Positions 1-38,382 of a DNA stretch of 38,382 nucleotides are shown here, in pieces. Every line of letters begins with the position of its first letter. The first letter of the stretch is position 1. This stretch comes from a virus, in the IMG/VR virus record IMGVR_UViG_3300017963_000148, positions 1 through 38,382 of that record; one strand, given 5' to 3'. A program made the translations under genes and the position numbers. The notes under the pieces were generated by a model, which was not told the origin of the DNA, ran no database searches, and saw nothing but the letters and a program-made list of their open reading frames with translations.

Positions 1-123
1 ATCATTCGATCAAGCATCATTCGCCGATTTCATCGAAGACAATCGAAGGGATTTTCAAGTCGGCGAGTTTCGGAACGCGAGCGGCGAGCCCGTGCAAAAC
101 GTGAGTACGCCGGAGCTTATGAA
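1..123. repeat. Direct terminal repeat, left copy (circular closure)
   Basis: Bases 1-123 are identical to 38260-38382. The reading frame of the DUF2303 gene continues correctly from the right end into the left end when one copy is removed, so the repeat reflects circularity or permutation of the molecule, or an assembler overlap. It is not a second gene copy. Confidence 0.97.
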
Positions 124-26119: not shown

Positions 26120-26149
26120 TCACTCCTCCAGTTTCAATTGTTCTTCGAT
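26120..26149. repeat. 30-bp direct repeat, copy 1
   Basis: Identical to 26410-26439. In each copy it encodes the C-terminus IEEQLKLEE plus the stop and the ribosome site of the following minus-strand gene. The two copies bracket the heptad-repeat gene. Confidence 0.9.
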
Positions 26150-26410
26150 TATTAAATCGCTGATGCGGACGCCATTCTTTCTATCTTCGTCCGACAATTC
26201 GCAATCATCCAGATACCCCTCTACGCCGGTCAGGTATCCCCGTACGCCGGTCAGGTATCCCCGTACGCCGGTCAGGTATCCCCGTACGCCGGTCAGGTAT
26301 CCCCGTACGCCGGTCAGGTCTCCCCGTACGTCGGAAGGCACTTCATCATACTTTTTTCCGTCTTTATAGTAGAAGATTGGAAATTTGTTTTTTCGCAAAG
26401 CTCTTTTCAT
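26120..26410 (-). CDS. Heptapeptide-repeat protein (GVRGYLT repeats), 96 aa
   Basis: A 96-residue protein with six 7-residue units (DVRGDLT, four GVRGYLT, GVEGYLD; about residues 28-69). The close is CELSDEDRKNGVRISDLI, a C-terminal pattern I associate with uncharacterised phage heptad-repeat proteins. The repeat is likely a small beta-solenoid or ladder. ATG 26410 is in a TGATG overlap with the upstream stop and has GGAGG. The C-terminal residues are identical to those of the upstream Rha-like protein because of the 30-bp repeats. Confidence 0.8.
   Translation of the reverse strand: MKRALRKNKFPIFYYKDGKKYDEVPSDVRGDLTGVRGYLTGVRGYLTGVRGYLTGVRGYLTGVEGYLDDCELSDEDRKNGVRISDLIIEEQLKLEE
26223..26327. 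repeat. 21-bp tandem repeats encoding heptapeptides
   Basis: Five tandem 21-bp units (ACGCCGGTCAGGTATCCCCG...) with only single-base differences, inside the coding sequence. Near identity at DNA level, including third codon positions, points to recent expansion. Copy number is expected to vary between relatives. Confidence 0.95.
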
Positions 26411-26439
26411 CACTCCTCCAGTTTCAATTGTTCTTCGAT
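26410..26439. repeat. 30-bp direct repeat, copy 2
   Basis: Second copy of the repeat at 26120-26149. It covers the 3' end of the Rha-like gene. Recombination between the copies would delete the heptad-repeat gene precisely and keep a working stop and ribosome site. Confidence 0.9.
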
Positions 26440-31008: not shown

Positions 31009-31186
31009 TTTTCTTCTCCTTTTGTCGCTGTTTTTTAAAATCGACGCTGGCTTGAATTAAATTATCAAGCGTCGGCCCTATTTTAAAACCTCGTTTCTTT
31101 AATCCGTCTAAATATTCGGACGTTTCCCGGCTGAATTCAATTGTTCGCCTAATGCCCTCCTTACGTCCGACTAGTATTGAGTCCAT
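31001..31186 (-). CDS. Small ribbon-helix-helix-like protein, first gene of the leftward operon
   Basis: A 61-residue basic protein with an RRTIEFSRETSEYLDGLKKRG...PTLDNLIQASVDF pattern (beta strand then two helices) consistent with ribbon-helix-helix regulators. It starts at ATG 31186 and lies next to the divergent promoters at 31222-31326, where it could act as a repressor of its own operon. The fold is inferred from pattern. Confidence 0.65.
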   Translation of the reverse strand: MDSILVGRKEGIRRTIEFSRETSEYLDGLKKRGFKIGPTLDNLIQASVDFKKQRQKEKKNE

Positions 31187-31221
31187 GTTTTTTCCTGTTT
31201 AGATGTTATTGCATGCCTATA

Positions 31222-31250
31222 AATCTATTTTCCGTAAACGGAGTTGTCAA
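31222..31250 (-). promoter_or_regulatory. Leftward promoter with palindromic operator in the spacer
   Basis: Minus strand TTGACA (31250-31245), 17-nt spacer, TAGATT (31227-31222). The spacer holds the inverted repeat TCCGTAAACGGA (31231-31242, 5-bp arms), an apt repressor site. The transcript would begin about 30 nt upstream of the gene at 31186. Confidence 0.75.
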
Positions 31251-31297
31251 CAGAAAAATGCGCTTAAATTTATTTATTTTTTTTACGCAGAAAACTA

Positions 31298-31326
31298 TTG
31301 ACAAAACTATTTAGATAAAATAACCT
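31298..31326 (+). promoter_or_regulatory. Rightward promoter of the control/replication operon
   Basis: TTGACA (31298-31303), 17-nt spacer, TAACCT (31321-31326). It reads to the gene at 31391. An AAACGGAG motif follows at 31351 and also occurs at 31236 next to the leftward operator, so both promoters may be controlled by one protein. Confidence 0.6.
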
Positions 31327-31390
31327 GAGTGCAGTTGAATCGAAAATCTTAAACGGAGAAGTCAGGAAAAAGATAAATTTTGGAGGAAAA

Positions 31391-31609
31391 ATGAAAAATC
31401 GAAAATTGCTCGATGAAGCGATCAAGGCTTTAAAGACCGACGCCGAATTCAGGCGCGGACTGGCGGCGGAAATAGGTTTGCTGTTTTCCGAATCCAACCC
31501 GGCCGACCAGGAGATACTTGTTAAAACGCTGCGCGTGGCGATGCCGGAAGAACTCAAGAGGAGAATTCGACCGGGCGCACTCTGCGAGTCATGCTCGGAA
31601 AGATATTAA
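31391..31609 (+). CDS. Hypothetical protein, 72 aa
   Basis: ATG 31391 with GGAGG 5 nt upstream. Helical, with LLDEAIKALKTDAEFRRGLAAEIGLLFSES and LVKTLRVAMPEELKRRIRPG, ending in CESCSERY, a CxxC pair near the C-terminus. First gene of the rightward operon. No family is recognised. Confidence 0.7.
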   Translation: MKNRKLLDEAIKALKTDAEFRRGLAAEIGLLFSESNPADQEILVKTLRVAMPEELKRRIRPGALCESCSERY

Positions 31610-31619
31610 GGAGAATTTT

Positions 31620-31745
31620 ATGAAATGTTATTATCACAAATCCGATTTCGGCGGTTCGGAGCTGCATTTCCTCCTGAATATAGAGGAATGTCAGCGGAGA
31701 AGCCCGACTGCCGAGGATTTCATAAATAATTATCTAGATGAATAG
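31620..31745 (+). CDS. 41-residue hypothetical protein
   Basis: ATG 31620 with AAGGAG upstream. MKCYYHKSDFGGSELHFLLNI..., ending DFINNYLDE; one Cys-His pair at the start. Its end overlaps a frame upstream of the next gene. Small but well formed. Confidence 0.6.
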   Translation: MKCYYHKSDFGGSELHFLLNIEECQRRSPTAEDFINNYLDE

Positions 31746-31755
31746 AGAGGAAAAC

Positions 31756-31983
31756 ATGAAAAAATATATTTTGACGCTGGCGGCGTGCGTGGCGTTTTCT
31801 GGATGGGCGGCGGCAGAGCCTCCTGGGAGAAGAGGGATAAGCAATCGAAACAAAGCCGCCGCTGTGCGGCAACCACGCATTCCGATTCGCAACGGATACG
31901 GAATAGCCCCATGGCGCTGGTTTAGCGCACCGGAAAAACCGGAAACATCTAAAAACGATACTAAATCGAAACCAAAAAAATAA
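31756..31983 (+). CDS. Small secreted protein with signal peptide
   Basis: A 75-residue protein from ATG 31756 (AGAGAGG upstream; an upstream in-frame ATG at 31738 is less likely). Residues 1-20, MKKYILTLAACVAFSGWAAA, form a classical Sec signal: basic start, hydrophobic core, small residues before a likely cut ahead of EPPG. The mature part is basic and Pro/Arg-rich. Exported early proteins of this kind can act at the envelope, for example in superinfection exclusion; that role is a guess. Confidence 0.7.
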   Translation: MKKYILTLAACVAFSGWAAAEPPGRRGISNRNKAAAVRQPRIPIRNGYGIAPWRWFSAPEKPETSKNDTKSKPKK

Positions 31984-32002
31984 ATCTCCATTGTACCTCT
32001 AT
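31984..32002. repeat. 19-bp direct repeat, copy 1, upstream of the XRE-Gp49 gene
   Basis: TCTCCATTGTACCTCTAT matches 32490-32508 with one mismatch in 19 bp. It lies in the last 26 bases before ATG 32010, where a repressor would block translation or transcription of the regulator. Confidence 0.8.
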
Positions 32003-32009
32003 GGGATAA

Positions 32010-32483
32010 ATGAATAACTATAATGAATTCAGCAAACGTTTACAGAAAGTCCGGGAAATGAAAGGGCTTTCCCAGCTCGACTTGGCTGCTAAAATCGGAT
32101 TGCCGCCTAGTTCGATATGTCATTTCGAGCGAGGAGCAAGGCGTCCATCCTTTGATAATTTAATTAAAATCAGTACATTTCTAAATGTATCCTTGGACTA
32201 TTTAATGAAGGGCAATATGAAAAACACACTTTCCAAAGAAGATATACTCAATAAAATTAAAAAACGAACATATACCCGATTGCCGAGCGGTAAAGTTATA
32301 ATATGTGAATTAACGCTTGAAAACGGTTTTGCCGTTACAGGGAAAAGCGCGGTGGTTGACATAGCAAATTTCGATCAAAAAATAGGTGAATCGATAGCTT
32401 ATGAAAATGCCGTTTCTCAAATATGGGCAATAGAGGGATATTTACTTCAGGAAAAAATTTATCAAAAAGACAAGGAAATTTGA
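32010..32483 (+). CDS. XRE-type regulator fused to a Gp49/gp66-family domain
   Basis: A 157-residue protein. Residues 6-66 are a clear Cro/C1 HTH: SQLDLAAKIGLPPSSICHFERGARRPSFDNLIKI. Residues 88-148 match the N4 Gp49/Sf6 gene 66 family: LPSGKVIICELTLENGFAVTGKSAVVDIANFD..IGESIAYENAVSQIWAIEGYLL. Fusion suggests a DNA-binding module whose activity is set by the second domain. An internal ATG at 32217 (codon 70), with AAGGG 5 nt upstream, could also yield the 88-residue domain alone. Confidence 0.88.
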   Translation: MNNYNEFSKRLQKVREMKGLSQLDLAAKIGLPPSSICHFERGARRPSFDNLIKISTFLNVSLDYLMKGNMKNTLSKEDILNKIKKRTYTRLPSGKVIICELTLENGFAVTGKSAVVDIANFDQKIGESIAYENAVSQIWAIEGYLLQEKIYQKDKEI

Positions 32484-32489
32484 CGCTTT

Positions 32490-32508
32490 ATCTCCATTGT
32501 ACTTCTAT
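32490..32508. repeat. 19-bp direct repeat, copy 2, downstream of the XRE-Gp49 gene
   Basis: Second copy (ATCTCCATTGTACTTCTAT) directly after the regulator stop. The two copies bracket the gene 506 bp apart, which fits auto-regulation by looping or the borders of an exchangeable cassette. Confidence 0.8.
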
Positions 32509-32520
32509 CGGCTGAATTCG

Positions 32521-32545
32521 TCGGCTTCGCGCCGAGTCTTTTTTT
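32521..32545 (+). terminator. Rho-independent terminator after the XRE-Gp49 gene
   Basis: Stem TCGGC / GCCGA with loop TTCGC (32521-32535), followed by GTC and seven Ts (32539-32545). It separates the regulator from the downstream genes. Confidence 0.8.
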
Positions 32546-34343: not shown

Positions 34344-34574
34344 ATGGATAGAGCGATAAAAATAAACGAAACATTGGTTGGGAGACTTGACGCCCAGCTT
34401 CATAAATATAGCCTTGGGACACGTCAGAACCTAGCCAACACCTTGATAAGGAAAGGGCTGGACGTCATGGAGTCACAGGGTTATGAAGAGCTTTTGAAAC
34501 TTCCTAATCAGGAAAAAAATGAAGCTAGGGAACTGGATTCCACTAGACAAGAGTCTTGCGAAGTCCCTTCCTAG
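34344..34574 (+). CDS. Ribbon-helix-helix-like DNA-binding protein
   Basis: A 76-residue protein: AIKINETLVGRLDAQLHKYSLGTRQNLANTLIRKGLDVME (residues 4-43) has the strand-helix-helix pattern of Arc/MetJ-type repressors. The C-terminal 30 residues are acidic and disordered. First gene behind the promoter at 34282, whose inverted repeat is its likely target. Ends overlapping the replication initiator by 56 bp. Confidence 0.7.
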   Translation: MDRAIKINETLVGRLDAQLHKYSLGTRQNLANTLIRKGLDVMESQGYEELLKLPNQEKNEARELDSTRQESCEVPS

Positions 34575-35445
34575 GGATCGATCTTTTACCGACCTGGAAG
34601 CTATGTTTTCCATCTCCCTTGATTATGACTGCGGAAATGACGCGACGGTGTCCGGCTATGCCGCGAGATGGGGATGGTCCCGTAATAAGGTCAGGAACTT
34701 TTTGAATAAAATAGGGGTGAAATTTTCGTACAGCGAAAACACATCCAGAAAGCAAAATCAAAAAGGACAGATCGAAATACAGATCAGGGACAGATCAGGG
34801 ACAGATCAGGGACAGATAAGAATCATTGATTCCAGGTGGATGGACGGAGAAAAGGACAGATCAGGGACAGATCAGGGACAGAAAAAGGACAGATCGAAGG
34901 ACAGTACTAATAATCCTATAAATCCTAAACCTAAATCCAAACTCTTTTCCGAAAACTCTAACGAGTTTCGGTTAGCGAATTTTCTTCTGAATCATATCAG
35001 GAAGCATAAGCCGGACTTCAAGAAACCGAACCTTCAAACCTGGGCCAAGTCAGCCGATCTGATATTGAGAGTCGATAAACGGAACATCGACACGGTGAAA
35101 GCCGTTATCGTATGGACTCACAATGACGAGTTTTGGATGTGCAATATTCTCTCCATGTCGAAACTGCGCAAGCAATTCGACACTTTGGAAATGCGAATGA
35201 ACGAGAAACCGAAGAAGAAAAAACAGCCTGAACCGGAAAAGCAACGCAGCCTACAGGAAATAGCTCAGGCCATGATTCAGAATGAAGACGGCAGCATAAC
35301 AATTGATTATACGAGGTGCGATGGAACTGGAAACGGTAACGATGATACTGGAGTCTCTGATGTCGGAGACTTCTCGACGTTTTACGGACGAGGAAAAGTC
35401 ATTGAAGCTCCGAAACTGGATGACGGTCTTGAAAAACCTAACTGA
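34519..35445 (+). CDS. Replication initiation protein (lambda O/DnaD-like) carrying the origin
   Basis: A 308-residue protein. Residues 4-70 (WIPLDKSLAKSLPRDRSFTDLEAMFSISLDYDC...VSGYAARWGWSRNKVRNFLNKIG) form the winged-helix N-terminal domain of phage replisome organisers. Residues about 82-130 are a low-complexity repeat (RDRSGTDQGQ) dictated by DNA iterons. The C-terminal part (FRLANFLLNHIRKHKPDFKKPNLQTWAKSADLILRVD) resembles the helicase-loading domain of DnaD/O-type proteins. AGGAAAAAA precedes ATG 34519. Confidence 0.88.
   Translation: MKLGNWIPLDKSLAKSLPRDRSFTDLEAMFSISLDYDCGNDATVSGYAARWGWSRNKVRNFLNKIGVKFSYSENTSRKQNQKGQIEIQIRDRSGTDQGQIRIIDSRWMDGEKDRSGTDQGQKKDRSKDSTNNPINPKPKSKLFSENSNEFRLANFLLNHIRKHKPDFKKPNLQTWAKSADLILRVDKRNIDTVKAVIVWTHNDEFWMCNILSMSKLRKQFDTLEMRMNEKPKKKKQPEPEKQRSLQEIAQAMIQNEDGSITIDYTRCDGTGNGNDDTGVSDVGDFSTFYGRGKVIEAPKLDDGLEKPN
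34765..34904. other. Probable origin of replication: iterons inside the initiator gene
   Basis: Ten GGACAG-type boxes (best form GGACAGATC) at 34765, 34777 (variant), 34788, 34799, 34810, 34854, 34865, 34876, 34887 and 34899, in two clusters with an 11-bp period, one helix turn. The AT-rich stretch after 34905 could be the unwinding element. This is the layout of lambda ori in gene O. Because 11 is not a multiple of 3, all three frames are used, so DNA, not protein, is conserved. Confidence 0.85.
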
Positions 35446-37855: not shown

Positions 37856-38382
37856 ATGGAAGAAGATGTTTTAAAGGCGACGAATCAAGCTGAAACCATC
37901 CTGAACGCGGGCAAAGGACTTGCGGCGGCTCAACAGCTGGATATATTGAATACAGGCCGCGAAAAACACGCCGTTCTAGTGCCTGATGGGTGCGGCATTC
38001 AAGAACTGGACGCCGGGGTGAGCCGACCAAACCGCAAAAAGGGCGAGCGTGTTTTATTCGACCCTGAAAGCTTCTGTCGATATGTTAACAAACACAAAAA
38101 CGAGGATGAAACGATTATTCTGGCGGATGAGGACGCGGGCCTGTTGCAGGCGATTCTCAATGACAACGGCGCGGAACAACCGGCCTGGGGGGATTTCACG
38201 GGATTGTTGAGACTTGGATTTTCCGAACAATGGAAGATATGGACTGAAAAAAACGGGGAATCATTCGATCAAGCATCATTCGCCGATTTCATCGAAGACA
38301 ATCGAAGGGATTTTCAAGTCGGCGAGTTTCGGAACGCGAGCGGCGAGCCCGTGCAAAACGTGAGTACGCCGGAGCTTATGAA
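37856..38382 (+). CDS. DUF2303 family phage protein, N-terminal part (continues at position 1)
   Basis: Starts at ATG 37856 with AAGGAG upstream and runs off the window; joined to 1-496 after removing one copy of the terminal repeat it gives 299 residues. Visible family elements: N-terminal helix, HAVLVPDGCGIQELD (about 39-53), RVLFDPESFCRYVNKHK (about 65-81), TIILADEDAGLLQAILND and PAWGDFTGLLRL. Confidence 0.88.
   Translation, partial: MEEDVLKATNQAETILNAGKGLAAAQQLDILNTGREKHAVLVPDGCGIQELDAGVSRPNRKKGERVLFDPESFCRYVNKHKNEDETIILADEDAGLLQAILNDNGAEQPAWGDFTGLLRLGFSEQWKIWTEKNGESFDQASFADFIEDNRRDFQVGEFRNASGEPVQNVSTPELM
38260..38382. repeat. Direct terminal repeat, right copy
   Basis: Identical to 1-123; see the left copy. 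Unit genome length about 38,259 bp. Confidence 0.97.

Follow-up and report, generated by a model that had tools for sequence, protein, structure and literature searches.

Why would a phage join a DNA-binding head to a small Gp49/gp66-family domain, and does the resulting protein sense a signal, regulate a gene, or counter a host defense? We examined this for a single open reading frame, here called hth-acb4, in the window, i.e., the whole 38,382-nucleotide stretch of viral DNA that was analyzed. The original prediction described an HTH repressor head fused to a Gp49/gp66 domain, and this architecture was confirmed: the frame is intact, encodes 157 amino acids followed by a stop codon, and gives Pfam matches for both parts (Table 1).

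Table 1. Features of the hth-acb4 locus (positions in the window)
Feature	Position	Strand	Basis or remark
hth-acb4 gene	32010..32483	+	Intact ORF, 157 aa; sole HTH_3 match in the 38.26-kb phage
Cro/C1-type HTH domain, residues 1-69	32010..32216	+	Pfam, NCBIfam, PDB relatives
Acb4-family domain (PF13876), residues 75-149	32232..32456	+	Pfam, PDB sequence match, predicted fold
AAGGG (32208-32212) and ATG (32217-32219, codon 70)	32208..32219	+	Candidate internal start for a free sponge
28-nt direct repeat, upstream copy	31984..32011	+	24/28 identical; extends over the leader and the start codon; possible operator or edge of a cassette
28-nt direct repeat, downstream copy	32490..32517	+	Between stop codon and terminator-like hairpin
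Terminator-like hairpin (32521-32535), then T run	32521..32545	+	Terminator scan

Judged by its sequence, the N-terminal domain is a well-formed Cro/C1-type HTH that is predicted to bind DNA. Residues 11 to 65 match Pfam HTH_3 (E = 1.9e-16; 60.3 bits versus a cutoff of 23), and HTH_19 also matches in the same domain (45.4 bits versus a cutoff of 30.2). The nearest NCBIfam model is the RstR repressor (E = 3e-17), with a score that lies under the cutoff of that model (62.9 of 80 bits). Relatives with known structures include ImmR (7t8i; E = 2.9e-8), P22 C2, and the 434 repressor.

The second domain, which had been taken to belong to an uncharacterized family, has a described function. Residues 75 to 149 match Phage_gp49_66 (PF13876; E = 3.8e-23; 82.2 bits versus a curated cutoff of 27), and Chang et al. 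define PF13876 as Acb4, a family of sponges for the cyclic dinucleotides of CBASS (PMC11722364). In that study, Acb4 of phage SPO1 is a tetramer that binds four 3′3′-cGAMP at protomer interfaces and is already stable without ligand, all eight of the PF13876 homologs tested bound 3′3′-cGAMP, and Acb4 had no structural homology to Acb2, Tad1, or Tad2 (PMC11722364). When PDB sequences were searched with the single sequence, the only meaningful score was for SPO1 anti-CBASS 4 (9E4W; E = 6.7e-5), and a profile of 57 family sequences gave the same entry with an E value of 7.7e-10 (next match, 0.07). The predicted model has most of the domain at a pLDDT of >90 and an alpha-beta-beta-beta-alpha-alpha topology (helices at 76-82, 123-140, and 143-156; strands at 83-90, 96-103, and 108-114). 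All 13 Foldseek matches in the PDB with an E value of <0.001 were chains of 9E4W (best E = 6.6e-6), and VIA gave 9E4W a Z score of 9.4 (rmsd, 3.4 over 76 residues), with the next entry at 6.9. By sequence and predicted fold, residues 75 to 149 belong to the Acb4 family.

These results also bear on the hunch in the original prediction that the domain resembles the anti-Thoeris sponge Tad1 and reads immune nucleotides. Given the assignment to PF13876, the domain probably does belong to a family that binds immune nucleotides, but the route to this idea through Tad1 found no support. The predicted structure led to Acb4 (9E4W), and neither Tad1 nor a sponge of any other family was returned by the sequence and fold searches. 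Absence from such match lists does not amount to exclusion, but the lack of structural homology between Acb4 and Tad1 reported for the family points the same way.

To evaluate the ligand pocket, we mapped the SPO1 contact residues (PMC11722364) onto an alignment of 137 rows and took the family majorities from 135 viral homologs. Six contacts are retained (K36 as K95, F48 as F107, V56 as V115, F62 as F121, I66 as I125, and L89 as L146) and five are altered (E49 to A108, Y57 to V116, N63 to D122, T70 to I129, and K81 to A140, the last in the least certain column of the alignment). V116, D122, and I129 are the commonest residues at their columns, and in the alignment they are the family majority rather than signs of decay. 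A108 is not; threonine is commonest at this column, which holds the guanine-reading E49 in SPO1. The residues strongly conserved across the family are all present (C99, N105, G106, G126, A134, W139, and E142 to Y144). A working family member that differs from the SPO1 branch would be expected to have such a pocket, and nucleotide binding, whatever the ligand, is a prediction.

We then considered how the two domains meet. Similarity to HTH proteins stops at residue 69, and no linker follows. Two N-terminal classes, short and long, can be told apart among stand-alone Acb4 proteins; M70 coincides with the commonest start in the short class, 29 residues ahead of the conserved cysteine (a position used exactly by 18 of the 135 homologs). 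Because M70 coincides with this N terminus, codon 70 appears to mark a gene junction and domain boundary, and an internal start there is plausible. The original prediction had argued for such a start from the AAGGG-spaced ATG at 32217. Both elements are in place, but the argument from the Shine-Dalgarno sequence did not rise above background: the duplex energy is −4.5 kcal/mol before 32217 versus −3.3 before the upstream start at 32010, strong Shine-Dalgarno sequences occur at many genes of the phage, and an equal or better one precedes 23% of the ATGs internal to its genes (31 of 135). The signal before codon 70 is not distinguishable from chance, and it is the homology at the boundary that makes the start plausible.

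The flanks of the gene suggest a recent arrival. The 28-nt element occurs in the genome only at the two edges of hth-acb4, and shuffled sequences contained no such pair. The third-position GC of the gene (0.335) is the lowest among 39 genes, its two halves are both AT-rich (0.391 and 0.337), and the genome as a whole has a GC content of 46.9%. Together, these features make it probable that hth-acb4 was acquired recently, as an AT-rich cassette between direct repeats. The upstream copy follows the stop codon of the ORF at 31738-31983, so insertion of the cassette between this ORF and a terminator is possible. The terminator-like hairpin is weak evidence by itself (4 such sites in the region versus 3.0 expected in shuffles). 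The repeats are more simply read as a cassette boundary because three other dispersed direct-repeat pairs in this genome also lie at gene edges (33001-33046/33943-33989, ∼47 nt; 1243-1308/2089-2154, ∼66 nt; and 26120-26149/26410-26439, ∼30 nt), with none expected from shuffles. The upstream copy may be an operator, but the case for an inverted-repeat operator is not compelling: the element is weakly palindromic, with at best 5 of 8 pairs symmetrical, and it recurs beyond the 3′ end of the gene, where it fits a cassette scar at least equally well. No clear sigma-70-like promoter was seen directly upstream of hth-acb4. A search of other viral contigs for an empty site, with the repeat but not the gene, did not find the repeat, and related contigs identified through the replication gene had no hth-acb4 match, most of these sequences ending before the equivalent place.

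An exact 123-nt direct repeat is present at both ends of the window (1-123 and 38260-38382), so the sequence probably represents the complete genome of the phage, circular and 38,259 bp long. The gene content includes a Mu-type portal (PF06074), a Terminase_3 large subunit, RecT, Rha, and a DnaD-like replication protein, and a search for an integrase or resolvase across the genome found none. hth-acb4 sits further down a series of rightward genes, away from the divergent region near 31186-31391. Other repeats in this genome are worth recording. The gene-edge pairs away from hth-acb4 could represent leader or promoter sequences present in more than one copy, or they could delimit gene cassettes that this RecT phage gained by recombination. 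Tandem repeats of 21 nt at 26189-26355, within the minus-strand ORF at 26120-26413, encode GYLTGVR peptide repeats. Repeats of the GGACAGATCAG type cluster at 34754-34894, inside the DnaD-like replication gene (34519-35445), and are possible origin iterons.

To determine how rare the fusion is, we ran three scans of viral contigs, which partly shared contigs and listed 80 loci each (in two of them, the best of a longer ranking), and one scan of genome contigs for prophages (73 loci). The first viral scan was ranked by similarity to the Acb4 domain and the others by similarity to the whole fusion. None of the approximately 250 viral and prophage Acb4 loci listed carried an HTH-Acb4 fusion; the domain was stand-alone or had other N-terminal extensions. 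HTH ORFs near acb4 homologs were few, and none was fused. In a set of 50,697 phage records, 453 matches had an E value of ≤1e-8, and not one of them covered 80% of the query. Searches of 292 genomes in one phylum and 398 in a second gave Acb4 or HTH matches but no fusion. Some candidates fell away on inspection: the one full-length Taipeivirus match that was inspected (Magnus), found at a looser E value, spans the stop codon between two separate genes, and HTH matches on Bacillus and Priestia plasmids have no Acb4 domain. We found no published description of an HTH-Acb4 protein in the open-access literature, and the Acb4 paper mentions only "additional extensions," not an HTH (PMC11722364). 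A joint function of the two domains is without support from conservation, as the fusion was found in one genome only.

Acb4 does occur in other unusual architectures. In three of the loci (L034, L038, and L070, and by eye also L019, L239, and L009), it is joined to a short Tad2-looking domain with the motif GYxVxYxDGYxSWxPxxxF, and these proteins are possible double sponges. Searches of Pfam, NCBIfam, and PDB sequences did not confirm the Tad2 identity of the short domain. The BFVD entry A0A8S5M092, labeled "Thoeris anti-defense 2-like," also matches the Acb4 part of our model. A 207-aa ORF at loci L026 and L118 has tandem Acb4 domains (two PF13876 stretches), of which the N-terminal copy is diverged, and an Acb4-like protein of 278 aa from Erwinia phage phiEa2809 (BFVD A0A0A0YVI6), annotated as a RyR-domain protein, is another possible Acb4 fusion.

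What, then, might the fusion do? The original prediction held that fusing the domain to an HTH implies that it senses something. This does not follow from the architecture itself, because the HTH-fused anti-CRISPR proteins AcrIIA1, AcrIIA13 to AcrIIA15, and AcrIF24 act as inhibitors, with autorepression in the members that have been studied (PMC10901769). In AcrIIA15, the inhibitor domain follows the HTH; this protein shuts down the promoter of its own gene and can bind DNA and its target at the same time (PMC10901769). By analogy, we favor a self-repressing CBASS sponge, to which we assign a probability of about one-half. The Acb4 domain would sequester CBASS cyclic dinucleotides during infection, probably as a tetramer, while the N-terminal HTH would bind DNA at or near the leader of its own gene and repress transcription once enough protein has accumulated. 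A start at codon 70 may yield some free sponge as well. The most economical model would be a sponge that keeps its own production in check, as a CBASS counterpart of the fused Acr-Aca proteins. Against it stand the loss of the SPO1 E49 (A108 here) and of Y57, T70, and K81, the downstream copy of the repeat, and the lack of a clear promoter.

A different reading makes the Acb4 domain a sensor, with cyclic dinucleotides at the tetramer interfaces rearranging the HTH pairs so that CBASS itself would switch phage genes. As the ligand sites of Acb4 lie at protomer interfaces, ligand could alter an oligomer to which the HTH is tied (PMC11722364); the HTH is, moreover, the sole HTH_3 regulator found in the phage, and AcrIIA1, likewise an HTH-fused inhibitor, is cited in PMC10901769 as reported to respond to the level of Cas9. 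However, the stability of the SPO1 tetramer without ligand implies no large change upon binding, no recurrent HTH fusion was seen among the matches listed that would show selection for coupling, and a sponge would sense poorly if it soaked up the very molecule that induces it, unless its expression were weak. We regard such a ligand-gated switch as possible but unlikely. The fuller version, in which HTH-Acb4 reads CBASS cyclic dinucleotides, alters its DNA binding, and has its threshold set by free sponge from codon 70, seems doubtful.

It is improbable, though worth weighing, that the fusion is incidental, a small HTH gene and acb4 having been joined by the loss of a stop codon, with a working sponge (the whole fusion or the product of codon 70) and an HTH that regulates nothing. 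The match of M70 to the N terminus of short-class proteins, the linkerless end of the HTH part, the single genome, and a newly acquired look with bracketing repeats would all suit this origin, but the HTH is intact and scores strongly in Pfam, with no decay, and the two halves probably arrived together because they share their AT-rich composition. Very unlikely, in our view, is a repressor of early genes or immunity in which the Acb4 fold serves only for oligomerization and has lost nucleotide binding. That hth-acb4 encodes the sole HTH_3 protein of the phage and that several SPO1 contacts are altered speak for it, but most of the altered contacts are the family majority, the gene lies in a rightward run and not at the divergent region, and the 28-nt repeat occurs only beside hth-acb4. 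A role as a classical lysogeny repressor is also less likely because the genome has no detectable integrase or resolvase. An assembly or base-calling artifact joining two genes is hardly credible: the fusion is in one record, with no independent copy found, but the frame is open across the junction, the contig closes with its exact terminal repeat, and the halves are similar in composition.

Under the self-repressing sponge model, the phage may control a counter-defense gene with the same molecule that performs the counter-defense. Fused inhibitor-repressors are known for anti-CRISPRs, and we found none described that is built on an immune-nucleotide sponge; even this plain reading would offer a testable example of how phages control sponge dose. 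If DNA binding responded to the nucleotide, the phage would have a regulator able to sense the immune signaling of its host, and a natural cyclic-dinucleotide-gated transcription factor.

Among known systems, Tad1 is similar to the Acb4 domain in being a phage protein family that sequesters immune nucleotides, but it is a different family: no Tad1 match came up in the sequence or fold searches, and Chang et al. report that Acb4 lacks structural homology to it (PMC11722364). The N-terminal HTH recalls the RstR-, ImmR-, and 434-type repressors of phages and integrative and conjugative elements, from which hth-acb4 differs in its subthreshold RstR score, its other C-terminal domain, and a genome without an integrase. 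SPO1 Acb4 (9E4W) is closer, sharing the Pfam family, the predicted fold, a similar domain length, and the contacts K36, F48, V56, F62, and I66, whereas it is a 96-aa single domain without an HTH, its E49, Y57, T70, and K81 are lost here, and nucleotide binding by our protein is a prediction. The fused Acr-Aca proteins target CRISPR-Cas proteins, whereas hth-acb4 carries a domain of a nucleotide-sponge family and has no identified inverted-repeat operator. In overall design, the protein nevertheless resembles AcrIIA15 and its counterparts AcrIIA1, AcrIIA13, AcrIIA14, and AcrIF24, in which an HTH and a domain of an immune inhibitor family are likewise combined in one phage protein.
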